The position numbers were made by a program, and so were the translations under genes. A stretch of DNA of 64,000 bases from Actinomycetota bacterium (GTDB taxonomy: Bacteria; Actinomycetota; Actinomycetes; S36-B12; FW305-bin1): the NCBI GenBank assembly GCA_004297305.1, contig SCTR01000010.1, positions 248,001 through 312,000 on the forward strand, read 5' to 3'. Numbering within the stretch: the first letter of the stretch is position 1; each line of letters begins with the position of its first letter. Under the pieces are notes generated by a model, which was not told the origin of the DNA, searched no databases, and worked only from the letters and a program-made list of their open reading frames with translations. Below, piece after piece: positions 3,379-14,360 of the stretch.

Positions 3379-5244
3379 TCAGCTGCGGACCCGGGACCGG
3401 CTGCGTGCCTTCTCCCGTTCGGTGGCGCCCAACAGAACCTTCCGGATCCGGACGTTCGCTGGGGTCACCTCGATGCATTCGTCCTCGCGGCAGAACTCCA
3501 GGGCCTGCTCCATGGACATCTGCTTGTGCGGGATCAGCGGGACCAGGACGTCACTGGAGGACTGACGCATGTTCGTCAGCTTCTTCTCCTTGGTGGGGTT
3601 GACGTCCATGTCGTCGGCACGAGAGTTTTCCCCGACGATCATGCCCTCGTAGACCTCGGTCCCCGGCCCGACGAACATCGTCCCGCGCTCCTGCAGGTTC
3701 GCCAGGGCGAAGCCGGTGGTGGGCCCACGCCGGTCCGCCACCAGGGAACCGGTGGGGCGAGTTCGCAGGTCACCGTGCCAGGGCTCGTACCGGTCGAAGA
3801 CATGGTGCAGCAGACCGGTACCCCGGGTCTCGGTCAGGAACTCGGTACGGAATCCGATCAGTCCACGGGCCGGCACGACGTACTCCATCCGGATCCACCC
3901 GGTGCCGTGATTCACCATCTGCTCCATGCGGCCCTTGCGCAGCGCCATGAGCTGGGTGATCACCCCGAGGTAGTCCTCGGGAATGTCGATCGACAGGTGC
4001 TCCATCGGCTCGTGCACCACGCCGTCGACGACCCGCGTCACGACCTGCGGCTTGCCGACGGTCAGTTCGAACCCCTCGCGGCGCATGATCTCGACCAGGA
4101 TCGCCAATTGCAGCTCGCCGCGGCCCTGGACCTCCCAGGTGTCGGGCCGTTCGGTCGGCTCCATGCGGATCGACACGTTGCCGACCAGTTCGGACTCCAG
4201 CCGGCTCTTGACCAGCCGCGCGGTGAGCTTCGTGCCGCTCTGCCCGGCCAGCGGCGAGGTGTTGATGCCGATCGTCATCGAAATGGACGGCTCGTCGACG
4301 GTGATAGCCGGCAGCGGGACCGGATTCTCGGGGTCGGCCAGCGTCTCGCCGATCGTGATCTCCGGGATACCCGCCACGGCAATGATGTCGCCGGGACCGG
4401 CCTGCTCGGCCGGCACTCGTTCCAGCGCCTCCGTCATGAGCAACTCGCTGACCCGCACCCGCTCGGTCGTCCCGTCCGCACGGCACCAGGCGACCGACTG
4501 ACCCTTGCGGATGGTGCCGGCGCGGACCCGGCACAGTGCCAGCCGGCCCAGGTACGGCGAGGCGTCCAGGTTCGTCACATGCGCCTGCAGCGGTGCGCCT
4601 TCGGAGTAGGCCGGCGCCGGGACCGTCGCCAGCAACGTGGCGAACAGCGGCTCAAGGTCCTCACTGTCGGGCAGACCGCCGTCAGCCGGGCGGGTCAGCG
4701 AGGCACGGCCGGCCCGGGCGCTGGCGTAGACGATCGGGAAATCGATCTGACTGTCGTCGGCATCCAGATCGAAGAAGAGTTGGTACGTCTCGTCCACGAT
4801 CTCCGCGATGCGGGAATCGGGCCGGTCGACCTTGTTGACGACGAGCACCACCGGCAATCGCTTCTGCAAGGCCTTCCGCAACACGAACCGGGTCTGCGGC
4901 AAGGGGCCCTCACTGGCGTCGACCAGCAACAGCACCCCGTCGACCATCTCGAGGCCGCGTTCGACCTCGCCACCGAAGTCCGCGTGTCCGGGGGTGTCGA
5001 TGATGTTGAGCGTGACGCCTCCGGCCGGTGCCGCGGGTCCGGCGTACCGCACCGCGGTGTTCTTGGCCAGGATCGTGATGCCCTTCTCACGCTCCAGGTC
5101 CATCGAGTCCATGACGCGCTCGGCGACGTCCTGGTTGGCTCGGAATGCACCGGACTGCCACAGCATCGCGTCCACCAGCGTGGTCTTGCCATGGTCGACG
5201 TGGGCGATGATCGCGACGTTGCGCAGGTCTTCGCGTACGGGCAT
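3379..5244 (-). CDS. typA: Ribosome-associated GTPase TypA/BipA
   Basis: Translational GTPase of 621 residues that acts on the 70S ribosome and is linked to 50S assembly and stress adaptation. Motifs in order: G1 AHVDHGKT (about residues 15-22), switch region KGITILAKNTAV, G3 DTPGHADF, G4 NKVDR and G5 SAR, followed by the EF-G-like domains and the TypA-specific C-terminus with the MRQSSSDVLVPLIPHKQMS region. Length is usual for actinobacterial TypA. It lies only 39 bp downstream of the allophanate hydrolase gene on the same strand, so read-through from that cluster is possible, but its role is housekeeping and it probably has its own promoter. Confidence 0.95.
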   Translation of the reverse strand: MPVREDLRNVAIIAHVDHGKTTLVDAMLWQSGAFRANQDVAERVMDSMDLEREKGITILAKNTAVRYAGPAAPAGGVTLNIIDTPGHADFGGEVERGLEMVDGVLLLVDASEGPLPQTRFVLRKALQKRLPVVLVVNKVDRPDSRIAEIVDETYQLFFDLDADDSQIDFPIVYASARAGRASLTRPADGGLPDSEDLEPLFATLLATVPAPAYSEGAPLQAHVTNLDASPYLGRLALCRVRAGTIRKGQSVAWCRADGTTERVRVSELLMTEALERVPAEQAGPGDIIAVAGIPEITIGETLADPENPVPLPAITVDEPSISMTIGINTSPLAGQSGTKLTARLVKSRLESELVGNVSIRMEPTERPDTWEVQGRGELQLAILVEIMRREGFELTVGKPQVVTRVVDGVVHEPMEHLSIDIPEDYLGVITQLMALRKGRMEQMVNHGTGWIRMEYVVPARGLIGFRTEFLTETRGTGLLHHVFDRYEPWHGDLRTRPTGSLVADRRGPTTGFALANLQERGTMFVGPGTEVYEGMIVGENSRADDMDVNPTKEKKLTNMRQSSSDVLVPLIPHKQMSMEQALEFCREDECIEVTPANVRIRKVLLGATEREKARSRSRVRS

Positions 5245-5283
5245 GCGTTGGTCGCTCGATTCGTCGGAGGCGGTCCCGGCAGC

Positions 5284-7278
5284 CTACCGGCCGTGAGCGG
5301 CCTGCTCGTCGTCGGCCGGTAGCGCTGCAGCCTCCGTACTGGCCAGGTAGGCGCGCCAGCCACCGAATCGGGTGATGTCCTGTGCGTCGCCGATGACGTG
5401 GGTCTCGCACCGGAATCCGAGGACTTCGCGGCCGTCGCCGAGTTCGATCCGGCCAAGTCCCAGCGGTGCCGGGATCTCGGTCAGCAACGAGCCCAGGGCT
5501 TCGGTCGACAGCCGGTAGATCTCGACCTCGATCGAGGCACCGCGTCCGGGATCGCGGACCAGACCCGGGCGGCGCACCGAATCGCCCGGCAGCGCATAGA
5601 GCCGGTAGTCCGGCGCAGTCGCATTCGGCCCGACCAGAACAGCGCCGCGGTCGGTGAGTTGGTAGTGCAACGGCAGGCCGGCCAGATGGGCACCCACGAC
5701 CGCAAGGTCAACCCAGCCGTCGGTGGAGATCCGGGCAGGGAGGCTCGCAGCGACCGAGGCCCTGGCCGTGCCTGCGGGGGGCATGGCCGAGCGGCTGGCT
5801 ATCGAAGCAGTAGCCACGTCGTCGGCCGGCACGATTTCGCCGGTGGCAGCAGCCAACCGCAGACATCGGGCGTGTACGGCCGAGCCCAGGGACAACAGCG
5901 CGTCGTCATGACCGGCGGGGGCCAACAGGGTGATGCCGAACGGCTGGCCGGCCGGGGTGAACGCCGCCGGGACGGCCACCGCGGACAGGTCCAGAAGGTT
6001 CGCGAACGTCGTGTAGTGCCCCAGGGTGCTGTTCAGGTTCACCGGGTCAGCCACGACATCGGCGACCGAGTAGCTCGTGGCCACGGTCGGCAGCAGCAGC
6101 GCATCGATCTCCGCCCAGACCGGCTCGACGGCACGGGCGAGCTCCGCCAGGGCATACCGGCCACGGAACATTTCGACGCCGGAGACGGCGTCGCCGCGGT
6201 CCAGGATCGACCGAATGACCGGATGCACCGATTCGGGCCGCGACCGGACGAAGTCACCCACCGCAGCCGATCGTTCGGCGACCCACGGCCCGTCGTAGAG
6301 CAACCTGCCGGCAGCCAGGAACGCCGCGAGATCGACATCGACGACGCTGATGCCGCTCCTGATCAGCCGATCGACGGTGCCGCCGTAGGCGTGCCGAAAG
6401 TGCGTGTCGCCGAAGAACTCCCACTGCTGACGCACCGGGACGCCGATCGTGACCGTGGTCAAGTCGGCTGGCTGTGGTGCGGCGGCGGGCAGCGGCAGCC
6501 GCCGGGAGTACGGATCGGCGTCGTCGTATCCGGCGATGAGCGCCATCACCTCGGCGCCGTCGGCCACGCTCAACGAGAACACGCTGACGCAGTCCAGCGA
6601 CCGGCACGCCGGGACAACTCCGGTGGTGCTGACCAGGCCACGGGACGGCTTGATACCGACCACGTTGGTCAGGGCGGCAGGGACCCGGCCCGAGCCGGCC
6701 GTGTCCGTCCCCAGGGCGAACGACGCCAGGCCCGCCGATACCGCGACCGCAGAGCCGGAACTGGATCCACCCGCGATGAACGAGGGATCGAAAGGTGACC
6801 GGCACGCACCGTATGGCGAACGGGTACCACTCAGGCCGGTGGCGAACTGGTCAAGATTCGTCTTGCCCACGAGGATCGCCCCAGCGGCCACCAGCCTGGC
6901 AACGACAGCGGCGTCGCGCTCGGGCCGATAGCTGAAGTCCGGGCATCCGGCGGTCGTCGGCAGGCCGGCGACATCGATGTTGTCCTTGACCGCGAACGGG
7001 ATCCCGAACAGTGCCGGCAACGGCAGGCCCTGCTCACGGTTTACCCGCAGCAGCCGGTCCAGCTCCGAGGCTCGCGCCGCCAGGTCGTCAGACGCCACGA
7101 CCGAGATCCAGACGTTCTCCGCCGCCGACGATTCACGCCGGTTCACGATGATGCGGACGACGTCGCCGACGGTCAGCTGACCGGTTCGGTAGGCCTGGTG
7201 CAGGGCCGGAATCTGCAGCGACGTGAGTCCGTCGTCGTACTGCAGCGGAATCGGCGCGGATTCGCGCTGCGCTCTCAC
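5284..7278 (-). CDS. atzF: Allophanate hydrolase (AtzF/TrzF-type amidase)
   Basis: Cytosolic hydrolase that converts allophanate to ammonia and CO2, the last step of biuret, cyanurate and urea-carboxylase routes. The protein is about 664 residues from GTG 7278, which overlaps the preceding stop by four bases (GTGA). The amidase-signature triad is visible: Lys98 in FAVKDNID, cis-Ser172 in GGSSSGS and nucleophile Ser196 in GTDTAGSG. The segment [10 protein letters not shown] is a marker of allophanate hydrolases rather than general amidases. About 200 residues at the C-terminus match the second domain of AtzF, ending with the LGTVELADGR-like [11 protein letters not shown] region. No biotin carboxylase is nearby, so allophanate probably comes from the adjacent biuret-hydrolase-like enzyme. 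Confidence 0.92.
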
Positions 7279-8000
7279 GCCGGCAGCGGGGCGACCAGCG
7301 ACTGCAGCAACGCCTCCGATGTCGCGACCGCACCGAACACCCCGCCCTGCATCGTGACCATCTTCAAGGCCGCGGCGTAGTTGCCGAGGTCCGTGGCGCC
7401 CGTGCAGTCCGACAGCAGCAGGCATTCGTAGCCCCGGTCGTTCGCGTCCCGCATCGTGGTGTGAACGCAGACGTCCGTGGTGATGCCCGTCAGGATGATG
7501 TGGGTGATACCACGGGTTCGCAGCAGCAGGTCCAGATCGGTCGCGTAGAACGACCCTTTGCCCGGCTTGTCGATGATCATCTCGCCGGGCAGCGGAGCGA
7601 CTTCGGGCACGATCTCCCAGCCCGGTTCGCCGCGGGTGAGAATCCTGCCGCACGGTCCGCTGTCGCCGATTCCGGCACCGATCCGGCGAGACCGCCACAG
7701 CTTGTTGGCCGGGAGGTCGGACAGATCGGGGCGGTGGCCCTCACGGGTATGGACGATGGTGAAGCCCAGCGGCCTGGCGACCTCCAACATGGCGGCGGTC
7801 GGCGCCAGACCGGCACGGGTCAACGACAGGTCGTAGCCCATGGCGTCCACGTAACCGCCGGGACCACAGAAGTCGACCTGCCAGTCGATGTTGATGATCG
7901 CGGTCGTGCTGGCCTGGAAGGTGCCGTCGTACGGCCACGGGTACGGATCGGCGGCGACCGCTCCGAAGGTGGTGATGGCGGCAGAGTCCGTCACGGACAT
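7275..8000 (-). CDS. biuH: Biuret hydrolase-like cysteine hydrolase (isochorismatase family)
   Basis: 241-residue isochorismatase-like hydrolase with a complete catalytic set: Asp39 in INIDWQVDF, Lys145 in [10 protein letters not shown] and Cys178 in [10 protein letters not shown]. Gln218 in MQGGVFG is also present. As I recall, the characterised Rhizobium biuret hydrolase uses D36, K142, C175 and Q215, so all four sit at a constant offset of three, and long stretches such as [14 protein letters not shown] fit that family. Predicted reaction: biuret plus water to allophanate and ammonia. Its product fits the directly overlapping atzF gene. The ATG at 8000 has a GAGGAG site. Triuret hydrolase (TrtA) and RutB-like ureidoacrylate hydrolases are related alternatives, so the substrate is inferred. 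Confidence 0.85.
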
Positions 8001-8042
8001 GCTGGCTCCTCGGCGTTTCGGGCGTTTCAGGATCGGGATGGA

Positions 8043-8639
8043 TCAGCAACTCTGCAGAGCTGCGAGGACGGCAGGAGTGGTGCCGACGGCGCCGAAGATG
8101 CCGCCGGACATCTCGATCATGGACACCGCAGCTGGAGTCAGGCTCGGATCGGCTGCGGCGCAGGCATCGACGACGAGCAGGCACTCGAAACCGCGGTCGT
8201 TCGCCGAGCGCATGGTGGAGTGGACGCTGGTCTCCAGACCGATTCCGCCGATGAGCACCTGGTCGACACCCCAACTGCGCAACGCATGATCCAGCGAAGT
8301 TCCGAAGAAGCCGTCGATCCCCGCGGCGACCATCGTGACGTCGGCGGCCGCGGCCAGCGGGCCGTCTGCGCTGCCGCCGGCAGCTGCTCCCGCCCACTGC
8401 ACCGAGGCTCTCGGACGTCCCGGTGGAATAGTGGCGACGTGCACCACCTTGCCGCCGACCGCAGTCACAGCCGCTGCGATCCGCACGGCAGCAGCCGTCG
8501 ATTCGCTCTGCGGCGCAGCACTTCCGGCTTCCATCGGTGACACCAGCACCAGGACGAGCCGGCGCGGATCGAGCCTGCCGTCGAAGGGCCACGGGTACGG
8601 CGTCGTACCCGCAACCCCGGAAACGGGTGCGTCGGCCAT
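8043..8639 (-). CDS. Degenerate isochorismatase-family paralogue (predicted pseudoenzyme)
   Basis: 198-residue protein clearly homologous to the adjacent BiuH-like enzyme: shared PYPWPFDG N-terminus, VHSTMRSANDRGFECLL and MSGGIFGAVGTTPA. Every catalytic position is replaced: Asp39 by Ser34, the Lys145 region by a lysine-free AAGIDGFFGTSLD (Ala105), Cys178 by Ser138, and the substrate-contact Gln218 by Ser178. The region carrying [12 protein letters not shown] and the EGHRPDL loop is also shortened. The reading frame is intact with a good GGTGAGG site before ATG 8639, and codon use matches its neighbours, so it is a maintained protein. Likely roles are structural subunit of a mixed oligomer, ligand sensor or regulator; none is shown. 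Confidence 0.8.
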   Translation of the reverse strand: MADAPVSGVAGTTPYPWPFDGRLDPRRLVLVLVSPMEAGSAAPQSESTAAAVRIAAAVTAVGGKVVHVATIPPGRPRASVQWAGAAAGGSADGPLAAAADVTMVAAGIDGFFGTSLDHALRSWGVDQVLIGGIGLETSVHSTMRSANDRGFECLLVVDACAAADPSLTPAAVSMIEMSGGIFGAVGTTPAVLAALQSC

Positions 8640-8665
8640 GAATCTCACCTCACCGACCTGCCGGG

Positions 8666-9974: not shown

Positions 9975-10889
9975 CTAAGTCGTCTTGCTGTTGTCGAGCA
10001 CGCGAAGCAGCTCGTCAGGCGCTGCCAGCAGCGTGCGTTTGCCGAGGATGGCGAGAATGGCCAGGGTCAGGACGAAGGGAAGCGCACCGAGGATCGCCTG
10101 GTTGACCGCGATTCCCTGCGTCTGCAGCGCGCTGCCCAGCGACAACGCCACCCCGAACAGGTAGGAGCCGGCCAGCACCAGGATCGGATTCCACATCGCG
10201 AAGATGACCAGGGCTACGGCGATGAATCCTCTTCCCGCAGTGACATTCTCGTACCACGTCCCCTGAGTCAGTGCCAGCGAGATCTGGGCCCCGCCGACAC
10301 CCGCCAGCGCGCCGCCCACTGCGACGGCTGCGCACCGGACCTTCACGACGCTGTACCCGTGGACTTCGAGCGCGTCGGCGCGCTCGCCGGCCGTCCGGAC
10401 GATGAGTCCCGCCCGGGTCCGGAACAACACCCACCAGAGCAGGGGTGCGGCGAGGTATCCCAGGTACGTCAGCGGATCGTGATCGAACAACACCGGCCCC
10501 ACCAGCGGAATCGAGGAGAGTCCCGGTATCGCCCAGGTCTGGAAGAAGTTGATCGTCCCGGAGACGTACGGAGCGCCGTAGAGCGCCGTGAGGCCGAAGG
10601 CCAGAAAGACCAGCGCCAGCCCACTGGCGAACTGGTTCGCCCCCCGCAGGACGACGAGTACGGCGTGCACGCTGGCCAGCAGCGCCCCCAACGCCGCACC
10701 GCCGAGCACGCCGAGCCGCGGCGAACCGGTGGCGGAGGTCGCGACGTACCCACCGAGCGCACCGACGAGCATGCTTCCCTCGGTGCCCAGGTTGATGACG
10801 CCGGCTCGCTCGGAGATGGTCTCGCCCAGACCCGCGTACATGATCGACGTACCGCCGACCACGGCGCTGGCCAGGATCTGCTCGATCAC
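9975..10889 (-). CDS. ABC transporter permease, BMP/nucleoside-import type (second permease)
   Basis: 304-residue polytopic inner-membrane protein of the branched-chain-permease superfamily, YufQ-like. The conserved N-terminus MYAGLGETISERAGVINLGTEG is typical, as is the ATPase-contact region near AGERADALEVHGYSV. About eight to nine hydrophobic segments are visible. Its ATG at 10889 overlaps the stop of the upstream permease (ATGA), so the two subunits are translationally coupled and presumably form a heterodimer. Confidence 0.92.
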   Translation of the reverse strand: MIEQILASAVVGGTSIMYAGLGETISERAGVINLGTEGSMLVGALGGYVATSATGSPRLGVLGGAALGALLASVHAVLVVLRGANQFASGLALVFLAFGLTALYGAPYVSGTINFFQTWAIPGLSSIPLVGPVLFDHDPLTYLGYLAAPLLWWVLFRTRAGLIVRTAGERADALEVHGYSVVKVRCAAVAVGGALAGVGGAQISLALTQGTWYENVTAGRGFIAVALVIFAMWNPILVLAGSYLFGVALSLGSALQTQGIAVNQAILGALPFVLTLAILAILGKRTLLAAPDELLRVLDNSKTT

Positions 10890-11992
10890 GGCTTCGCCCC
10901 CTTCTTGGTGGTCCAGCCGAGAACGGCGATGAGGACGAGGCCCAGCAGGATGTTCACCGTCGGTGCCGGCAGACCCGACCGCAGCTGCAGACTGTCGCCG
11001 GCGATGGCGATGGCTGCCAGCGCGAACGAGGCGACCAGGACCGGGATGGGCCGATGCCGGGCAAGCCAGCTGGCGAGGAAGCCCAGGTATCCGATGTTGG
11101 CCCCGAACGTCGAGACGAGTTGATATTCCTTGCCGGTCAGGTGGATGACCCCGGCGAGACCGGCAAAGGCGCCACCAAGCAGGAGAGCGCCCAGCAACAG
11201 CTTCCGGACGTTGAAGCCGGCCCGGCGCGCGGCCTCGGCGTTACCGCCGACGACCGAGAGGCGGAATCCCCAGGTCGTGAACCGCAACAGCACCCAGACG
11301 GCCACCGTCGCGATGACCGCGATGGCGATACCGATATGGACCTTGGAACTACCCAGGACCGGCAGCAGGGCGCCCGTCTCAAGCTCCCGACTGGCGATGC
11401 GGCCGTTCTGACCCGGATCACGCCAGGGACCGATGATCAAGTACTGCATGACGAAGAGCGCCACGTAGTTCAGCAGCAGGGTCGTCACCGCTTCGTTGAC
11501 CCGGACCGTCAGCCGCATCGCTGCGGCCACCCCGGCCCACAGGGCGCCGGCCACCGTCCCCGCCACGAGCATGAGGATCAGCACCACGGTGCCGTTGACG
11601 CGCTGATCGAGCATGAGCCCGACCCCCGCGGCCGCGACAGCCCCGATGATCAACTGGCCCTCGCCGCCGACGTTGACCATCCCGCCTCGAGCTGGGACGA
11701 CGACCGCGAGGGCAGTCAGCACGATGGGTGTCGCCAGGATCAGGATCTGCTGCAACGACGTACCGCGCGCCAGCGTCGACGACCAGATGTCGGAATACAC
11801 CTGCAGCGGGTTGGCGCCGTTGGCCATGACGAAGGCGCCGAACACCACCAGGGCCCCCCCGAGCGCGACCACCCATCGCAGCGTCGTCGCCAGCGCTCGG
11901 GAAGCCAGACTCTCCCCAGGAGCCTCCGCCGGACTCGGCGGTGGTCCAGCAGGCTCCGCCGGCGCCGGCTCGGCCGAGACGGTGACGCTCAT
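10886..11992 (-). CDS. ABC transporter permease, BMP/nucleoside-import type (first permease)
   Basis: 368-residue YufP-like permease. After a proline- and glutamate-rich cytoplasmic N-terminus (about 35 residues) come hydrophobic helices and the family motif [25 protein letters not shown], written here as [13 protein letters not shown]. It is coupled at both ends by four-base ATGA overlaps: with the ATPase gene upstream (11989-11992) and with the second permease downstream (10886-10889). It should form the membrane channel together with the 9975-10889 product. Confidence 0.9.
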
Positions 11993-13581
11993 GCGGCTCC
12001 TCCGAGCATCAGTTGGCCGATCCGCTGGCGGTCGAAGTCGGCAGCGGCCACGATTCCCGCCACGTGGCCGTCGTGCATGACCACGATGCGATCGGCAACC
12101 GACATCAACTCGTCGAGATCTTCGGAAACCATGAGAATCCCTGCCCCCGTGGCTCGTTGCTCCAGCAGCACCTCTTGAGTTCGCCGGGTATTGGCGATGT
12201 CGAGCCCCCGGCTGGGATAGGCGGCCACGACCAAGGCGGCAGGCTGCCCGAGTTCCCGCGTCAGAATCACTCGCTGAATGTTTCCCCCGGACAGTTCCGC
12301 CACCTTGCGGTGCGGAGCGGCGATGCGCAGGCCGACCCGCTTGTCGAACTCGGCGGTGCGATCGGCGACGACCTTCCAGTCGATTCCCCACCGTCGGCGC
12401 GGCAGCGCCTTGCCGTCCAGAGCCATGTGCTGCACCACGTCCAGCCGGGCGACCACGGAGTCCGCGACGGGATCCTCGGGGATCGTCACCGCTCCAGCAG
12501 CCAACGCGGCCCGCGGCGACTCCTTGCCCAACGCCGCATCGGCCAATCGGACACTCCCGGCGGTGACCGGGCGCAGCCCGACTGCCACATCGCACAGTTC
12601 GCGTTGCCCGCTGCCGGCAACCCCCGCGACTCCGACGAGTTCGCCGGGGAACACCTCGAAGGTGATGCCCTTGAGCGCCTCGTGCCCCCGGTCGCCGTTG
12701 GCGCGAACGCCATCCAGGGCCAGGACACTGCGCTGCCCGACGCTGACCGGATCGCGCTCCCGCGTCAACGGCGCAACCCGGCGGCCCACCATCGCCTCGA
12801 TCAGTTCCGGGTCGGAGTAGTCGCCAGGCTTGGCCCCGTTGAGGACCACCCGACCGCCACGCAGCACCGTGACCCGGTCGGCGATCGTCCGTACCTCGCC
12901 CAGCTTGTGCGTGACGATGACGATGCCGAAGCCGTTGTTGCGCAGCTGATTGACCACGCTGAACAGCGCTGCGACCTCTTGCGGTGCCAGCACGCTGGTC
13001 GGCTCGTCCAGGATGACCAGACGGGCGCCGGTCATCAGGACCTTGAGGATCTCGGCGCGCTGCCGCTCGCCGATCGACAGGTGCCGCACCTTGGCTTCGG
13101 GATCCACCGCGAGGCCGTGTTCGGCACTGGCGGCGGCGATGCGCGCCGACAGACGATCCAGGCCGAGGGTGAGGCCGCCCGGTATGGCCAGGGCCACGTT
13201 CTCCGCGACGGTCAGTGCCGGCACCAGGCGAAGGTCCTGAAACACCATGCCGATGCCCAGTGCGCGTGCATCGGCCGGGCTGCCCGGCGCCACGACGGTT
13301 CCAGCCACCAGCATCTTCCCGTCGTCCGGAACATAGATTCCGTAGATCATCTTCAGCAGCGTGCTCTTGCCGGCGCCGTTCTCCCCGACCAGCGCATGGA
13401 CCTCGCCAGCAACGACATTGAGGTCCACATCGGTGTTCGCCTTGACCTCACCGAAGTGCTTGGTGAACCCGAGGACCTCCAGCAGCGGCGCCGGCGGACC
13501 GGTATGCCGTTCGCCTCGTGGGTTGGGAACGATGGGGGCCGGCTCCGCAGTGGCAGCCGACTCACTCGGGAACTCGGTCAT
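11989..13581 (-). CDS. ABC transporter ATPase with two ABC domains (nucleoside/sugar type)
   Basis: 530-residue tandem ATPase. Domain 1 has Walker [10 protein letters not shown]-loop VFQDLRL, signature LSIGERQR and Walker [10 protein letters not shown]. Domain 2 (from about residue 275) has a degenerate Walker [11 protein letters not shown], signature LSGGNIQR and [11 protein letters not shown], the form normally seen in YufO/RbsA-type transporters, so the asymmetry is a family trait rather than damage. It overlaps the regulator gene upstream and the first permease downstream by four bases each. It powers uptake through the two permeases fed by the BMP lipoprotein. Confidence 0.93.
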
Positions 13582-14360
13582 GGTCGAGCACCCCGGTGCA
13601 GCGCCATCTGCGTGATGGCGTGGACCGCCCGCCGTTCGACTACCGCCATCGACTCACCGACATTGCGCCGCAGTTGTTCCACTGCTTCGTCGATGTCACC
13701 GGCGATGACCGCACGGATGATGGCCAGGTGCTGCACGATCGTCAGCTCGATGCGGTCTGCGGTCAGGAAGTCGTACATCCGCACCGGACGGATCCGGGCG
13801 TTCACGGTCTCCAGGGTCTCGGTGAGCAGCGGGTTGCCGGCGGCGATGCTGAGACGGACGTGGAAGTCCTCGTCGAAGTCGACGAACTGCGAGTCCGGAG
13901 CCGGCGGCGACTCCTGCAGGCCCTCCCACGTGGTCAGCAGGTCGGCCATCACCGCGGGATCGTGAGGTACCCCTGTCTCCAGGACCCGTTGCAGGCCACG
14001 GGTTTCCAGTGCAATGCGCAGTTCGTAGAGGTCGCGCAACTGGGTGACGTCCGGCTCGGCGACCTCGTAGCCGCCGTCGCTGGAACGTCGCAGCAGCCGA
14101 TCGGCGTGCAACCGCACCAGGGCCTCCCGAACCGGGGTCCGGGACACCTCCAACAAGGCGGCGAGCGGTTCTTCGGCGAGCCTGGTCCGCGTCGGGAAGT
14201 CCCCGGCCAGGATCCGGCGGCGCAGGTCGGCGTAGACCTCTTCGCGTCGGAGCCGGGCCCGGGAGGCACGACGACGTCCCAGTGAGGCGACGCCGGACTG
14301 GGCGGTATCCGAACCGGTATCCAGAGCCGTGCCCGGCCATGTGTCCGGAGCTGCATCCAT
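13578..14360 (-). CDS. GntR-family transcriptional regulator (FadR/FCD subfamily)
   Basis: 260-residue regulator. The winged-helix domain (about residues 30-105) contains [21 protein letters not shown] and [16 protein letters not shown], the standard GntR recognition region. The remainder is the helical FCD ligand domain with conserved metal/ligand residues in DEDFHVRL and the H-containing IVQHLAII helix. It heads the transporter-biuret cluster and is coupled to the ATPase gene by an ATGA overlap, so it is probably an autoregulated repressor that responds to a pathway intermediate. Start ATG 14360 lies eight bases after a TAGCGT -10 box, consistent with a leaderless transcript. Confidence 0.9.

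Follow-up and report, generated by a model that had tools for sequence, protein, structure and literature searches.

A conserved paralogue of biuret hydrolase without the catalytic triad, encoded next to BiuH in Actinomycetota, as a candidate non-catalytic subunit

Much work has been done, in trypanosomes and animals, on enzyme paralogues that are catalytically dead and control a live partner. The open-access literature yielded no report of such a controlling paralogue in the isochorismatase-like hydrolases and no mention of the protein described here, which we call P, and a survey of biuret hydrolases in genomes, said to have appeared in Environ Microbiol in 2018, may already mention it. The nearest relative of P is the biuret hydrolase BiuH (NF050097; PDB 6AZN/6AZQ and 6XJM), with which it has in common the fold, the dimer-interface motifs and the loop that acts in trans. 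In the enzyme of R. leguminosarum, Asp36, Lys142 and Lys145 are essential, Lys142Arg being the only tolerated change, with a drop in activity of ~25-fold, and the substrate is held by Gln215 from another subunit, whose replacement by Ala raises the KM >25-fold (PMC5806882). The dimer is built by helices alpha4 (178-186), alpha5 (202-213) and alpha2 (95-102), and the protein is a tetramer with a second interface of ~700 A2 (PMC5806882). In the related hydrolase TrtA (PDB 6XIX, 6XJE), the discrimination between triuret and biuret lies with the trans Gln, Q202, whose place is influenced by Ile205 and Glu160 (PMC7948467). The TrtA gene sits in the BiuH operon in proteobacteria.

The locus lies in a stretch of 64,000 nt (the window) of contig SCTR01000010.1 of Actinomycetota bacterium FW305-bin1 (GCA_004297305.1), where a tight operon occupies positions 14360-5284 of the minus strand, with 4-nt overlaps between several adjoining genes. 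All its features are on that strand and follow in this order: a GntR-family regulator as the first gene (13578-14360), an ABC ATPase (11989-13581), ABC permeases 1 (10886-11992) and 2 (9975-10889), a BMP-type ABC substrate-binding lipoprotein with a weak match to NF047927 (8712-9869), P (8043-8639), BiuH (7275-8000) and an allophanate-hydrolase-like amidase (5284-7278), whose start overlaps the BiuH stop (GTGA). An earlier note on this DNA had described P as an intact frame of 198 residues with a good ribosome site, and both were found: the frame runs from the ATG at 8639 to the TGA at 8043-8045, and the Shine-Dalgarno-like GAGGTGAG (8644-8651) is placed 4-11 nt before the start. BiuH, a biuret amidohydrolase with the full Asp-Lys-Cys triad and Gln218, scored 418 bits against NCBIfam NF050097 (cut-off 370) and matched 6xjm with an E value of 1.7e-115.

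When P was aligned with the adjacent BiuH, Asp39 was found to be replaced by Ser34, Lys145 by Ala, Lys148 by Ile, Cys178 by Ser138 and Gln218 by Ser178. This agrees with the earlier note on the three changes to Ser and on the loss of Lys145, but not one lysine is gone but both (142 and 145 in R. leguminosarum numbering). The paralogy that it had read from the alignment also stands, but the likeness is concentrated in the C-terminal half (residues 105-195), which is ~45% identical to BiuH, and ~45 residues of the BiuH N-terminal half, around lid and loop, are missing. Against NF050097, P scored 103 bits, below the cut-off of 370 and over residues 105-195 only, so that it is not a BiuH equivalog, and its 67.6 bits against Pfam PF00857 (isochorismatase domain, gathering threshold 27) place it in the superfamily by fold. 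Its AlphaFold2 model, made with 25 sequences, is a complete isochorismatase fold (pLDDT 86.4, pTM 0.86) whose best PDB matches are BiuH, RutB and TrtA, BiuH being the closest (6xjm_D: Z 21.8, rmsd 3.5 over 192 residues, 29% identity).

The catalytic losses are not peculiar to the window. Asp39 and both lysines are absent from all 29 aligned P sequences, with varying residues in their place, and the Cys is gone from 21, including the window protein; it is kept in the eight of a Cellulomonas-type clade and is otherwise Ser, Ala, Gly, Pro, Thr or Glu. The trans Gln, which in BiuH stands in an MQGGVFG loop, is Ser in 29/29, and the changes Val221 to Ile and Asp176 to Glu are equally fixed. Thus, of the four substitutions that the earlier note had proposed to look for in orthologues, the Gln to Ser change is fixed, and is the only catalytic loss with a fixed replacement, whereas the others vary or, for Cys, are incomplete. 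By these sequence features P is a non-catalytic pseudoenzyme. That it is still an enzyme, with catalytic residues that migrated or were reduced in number, would suit the eight sequences with Cys and the invariance of Asp109, Glu136, His140 and Ser178 in an alignment of 25 sequences; we nevertheless hold this to be improbable, since the general base Asp and both lysines, the replacement of which inactivates BiuH or nearly so (PMC5806882), have disappeared without exception and since the Cys position accepts such different residues.

P was found in 30 distinct actinobacterial genomes, directly upstream of BiuH every time, in a recurrent operon of the order GntR, ABC transporter, P, BiuH and allophanate hydrolase; conserved catalytic loss is therefore joined in all 30 to conserved linkage with a live paralogue. 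Three further genomes, of another family, have the BMP/P/BiuH order of the window. The scan of a genome collection gave 24 P orthologues among 26 loci (the other two being a fragment at a contig end, L040, and a BiuH without P, L038), and their hosts were Nocardioides, Agromyces, Cellulomonas, Microbacterium, Actinomadura, Acrocarpospora, a Streptosporangiaceae, Bifidobacterium boum and several actinobacterial MAGs; P was also present in two genomes placed outside the class of the window and in two more of that class. Some of the genomes with P are incomplete MAGs. In two relatives within the Nanopelagicales (L025 and L026, around 5000-8600) the genes for ATPase and permeases have the inverse orientation to BMP/P/BiuH, and P stays with BiuH. 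In some Cellulomonas-like genomes (L018, 5361-6077; L035, 9989-10702) P has a long tail rich in Pro, Thr and Ala, the end of which holds the BiuH ribosome site. A search of plasmids with P returned no record covering 80% of it in one place, and among the matches listed only the C-terminal half was covered.

In a FastTree tree of P, BiuH, TrtA and the Rhizobium paralogue ISO2 discussed below, P was monophyletic (support 1.0) and joined the BiuH lineage and not TrtA, the deeper node having a support of 0.73. The dN/dS of P between close pairs ranged from 0.05 to 0.50 (0.32 pooled; 0.23 in the C-terminal half) and that of BiuH in the same pairs from 0.04 to 0.15, so that selection on P is purifying, and looser than on BiuH. 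The idea of P as a functionless, decaying duplicate could draw on this higher dN/dS and on the fast N-terminal half (28% mean identity over 37-100), but it has hardly any likelihood for a protein old enough to span several classes of Actinomycetota, with an intact frame in 30 genomes, the selection just described and invariant motifs. A local pseudogene was likewise ruled out by the orthologues and dN/dS: none of the orthologues has the triad, and a ratio of ~0.3 is not near one. The maintained pseudoenzyme of the earlier note is thus borne out, by conserved orthologues, by synteny in many families of Actinomycetota and by purifying selection. Nor do the tree and the loop support reading P as a degenerate TrtA.

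The mean pairwise identities of P, compared with those of BiuH from the same 24 genomes, differed greatly along the protein. They were 0.68 for P and 0.63 for BiuH in the N-terminal arm, 0.28 and 0.82 from the lid to beta2 (37-100), 0.81 and 0.97 in the elbow helix, and 0.91 and 0.87 in the trans loop, the most conserved segment of P. This indicates that the catalytic half of P is free to vary, and that its loop is as strictly conserved as that of BiuH. The loop (residues 176-186, EMSGGIFGAVG; 8082-8114) is a Ser/Ile form of the one that bears the trans Gln in BiuH and TrtA (PMC5806882, PMC7948467). Upstream of it lie the equivalents of two dimer-interface helices of BiuH as described in PMC5806882, alpha4 (residues 136-151, ETSVHSTMRSANDRGF; 8187-8234), with Glu136 in 29/29 sequences, and alpha5 (residues 164-176; 8112-8150). 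With TrtA, P has in common the loop Ile and the Glu before the nucleophile position (I205 and E160 in PMC7948467), but Ser stands for Gln; TrtA, unlike P, has the full triad and the trans Gln (Gln202), forms a separate branch and was never found in the genomes of P. As an observation apart, one genome without P (G391; L045, 1432-2169) encodes a single BiuH-like enzyme with the full triad and the loop MSGGVFGA, that is, with Ser at the Gln218 position, and offers a natural homomeric test of the Ser loop.

The same pattern of conservation bears on the suggestion of the earlier note that P might be a ligand sensor. A P that acts by itself as a sensor or regulator, for instance on the GntR protein or the transporter, would find both in its own operon, and yet we give such a role little credit: its pocket residues, lid and N-terminal half are lost or unconserved, no domain has been added to it, and its neighbour is BiuH, not the regulator, and remains so in loci with inverted transporter genes. 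The sensor reading is therefore weakened because P's own pocket is gone, and among the roles put forward in the earlier note that of an oligomer partner fits best, as judged from sequence.

The arrangement of the genes points to the same partner. The stop codon of P and the start codon of BiuH overlap in 17 of 24 loci, as ATGA or GTGA, with the BiuH ribosome site lying inside P, as one would expect of subunits made together; in the window, the two genes are separated by 42 nt, within which BiuH has its own GAGGAG (8006-8011). We believe that P probably binds BiuH. Against such an interface, the alpha2 part of the BiuH dimer contact (95-102 in R. leguminosarum) falls in the segment missing from P, and the conserved loop might just as well have its role in P:P dimers. 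An AlphaFold2 model of a fused P-BiuH, with the TGA read through and the natural spacer of 14 aa, reached a pTM of 0.50, with a shallow BiuH half, too low for the interface to be read from it. The search for BiuH columns that separate genomes with P from those without gave only four, in three of which L038, the one independent case, shows the state of the P carriers, so that there is no clear signal of co-evolution. The partner might also be the allophanate hydrolase, or P might channel the product from BiuH to it, given that the next gene after BiuH is in most loci that of the amidase, with an overlap of the two in the window. We find this very improbable, as P adjoins BiuH instead, and as no amidase occurs in the stretch fetched for several Cellulomonas loci (L017, L021-L024, L032, L035 and L039).

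The distribution of TrtA gives a further indication. TrtA was sought in BiuH genomes with and without P, the absence of P in the latter being confirmed genome-wide: it was found in 0/30 genomes with P and in 25/30 of those without, and no genome had both. Of these 25, 21 belong to one family (f96) and the others are Sphaerisporangium (G902), G700, G239 and G795; G215, G315, G391, G413 and G633 have BiuH with neither P nor TrtA. The representative actinobacterial TrtA copies have the triad and an AAQGGIFGW-type loop. The exclusion has a Fisher p of 5e-12 with phylogeny ignored, and a Pagel-type comparison of dependent and independent two-trait models on the BiuH tree (57 tips) gave LR 15.1 (4 df, p=0.0045). 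Since Fitch parsimony counts only five changes for P and three for TrtA, we take the exclusion as moderate evidence. The f96 and Sphaerisporangium (L038) lineages, which lack P and have TrtA, are nested among P carriers in the BiuH tree, a placement that would fit two separate losses of P, each of them in genomes that have TrtA; G633, nested as well and without P or TrtA, counts against replacement. Its BiuH match (L079) contains one in-frame TGA, and a slightly shorter match has none. The tie with TrtA implied by the earlier note thus takes another form, since P does not group with it in the tree but the two exclude each other across genomes.

On these grounds we propose that P is a maintained non-catalytic subunit of BiuH whose altered trans loop resets the substrate range and which replaces TrtA, a reading that we put at slightly short of even. 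By this proposal, P would have arisen when an actinobacterial BiuH was duplicated inside its operon, and would have lost its own chemistry but retained the helices of the dimer interface together with the loop that enters the active site of the partner. In the P:BiuH pair, the loop with Ser178 and Ile181 would complete the live BiuH site in place of Gln218 and Val221 of BiuH. That P acts through this loop, docked according to the published structures and our alignment, is conceivable but somewhat less secure. Since biuret and triuret hydrolases are told apart by this trans position, the pair is expected to differ from BiuH in having a different, wider range, or a lower activity on biuret; it counts against the proposal that mutation of Gln215 makes BiuH a poorer enzyme on biuret, not a better one. 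The pair would then do what TrtA does in other genomes. Triuret is the first candidate substrate, with considerable doubt. Equally tentative is the scheme in which BiuH alone hydrolyses biuret and the pair triuret or another longer ureide, one chain thereby serving two reactions and making a TrtA gene unnecessary. Synteny, translational coupling and the conserved core would fit equally well if P were purely structural or stabilising, or if P:P dimers joined BiuH dimers through the small second interface of the R. leguminosarum tetramer, with the range unchanged and the TrtA pattern a coincidence of lineages. This we consider unlikely, because it leaves unexplained both the exclusion of TrtA and the fixation of Ser, Ile and Glu in the region of the specificity loop.

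A similar pair occurs on Rhizobium plasmids (L085, 4010-5294; L087, 4295-5642; L089, 3668-4952), where a live hydrolase, ISO1, overlaps a triad-less ISO2 of 201-213 aa, shortened but with the alpha4 segment and a GLFG loop kept. As with P and BiuH, a live isochorismatase-like hydrolase stands beside a shortened triad-less paralogue, before an allophanate hydrolase, which is annotated directly after the pair in two of the three loci (L085 and L087, as AtzF). In contrast to P/BiuH, the ABC transporter is of the sugar type, the loop has Gly instead of Ser, and Phe occupies the Gln position of the live partner. Although the tree groups ISO2 with P (0.965), both branches are long and the grouping may be due to long-branch attraction, so the Rhizobium pair is probably a second, independent dead/live case. 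On a Salipiger plasmid (L088, 3327-4702) there are two tandem isochorismatase-like hydrolases, both with the triad and with Ser and Gly, respectively, at the trans Gln position, possibly an earlier stage of such pairs.

In trypanosomatids, AdoMetDC and deoxyhypusine synthase have dead paralogues known as prozymes (PMC5201418, PMC3663545), and P would be a variant on this theme, with a sharp and testable hypothesis attached. Like P as proposed here, a prozyme forms a heteromer with the live enzyme and alters its activity, but the folds are unrelated, and activation by prozymes is experimental whereas the effect of P is a proposed change of substrate range through the trans loop. P represents a real and conserved family of pseudoenzymes, apparently undescribed, in a known pathway. 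Annotation by homology files such proteins as cysteine hydrolases and would miss their function. As the structures of the family show that specificity is set by the loop of the neighbouring subunit, two small soluble proteins and two inexpensive substrates would be enough to test directly whether a pseudo-subunit can switch the substrate, and such a switch, if true, would account for a possible use of triuret by actinobacteria that lack TrtA.
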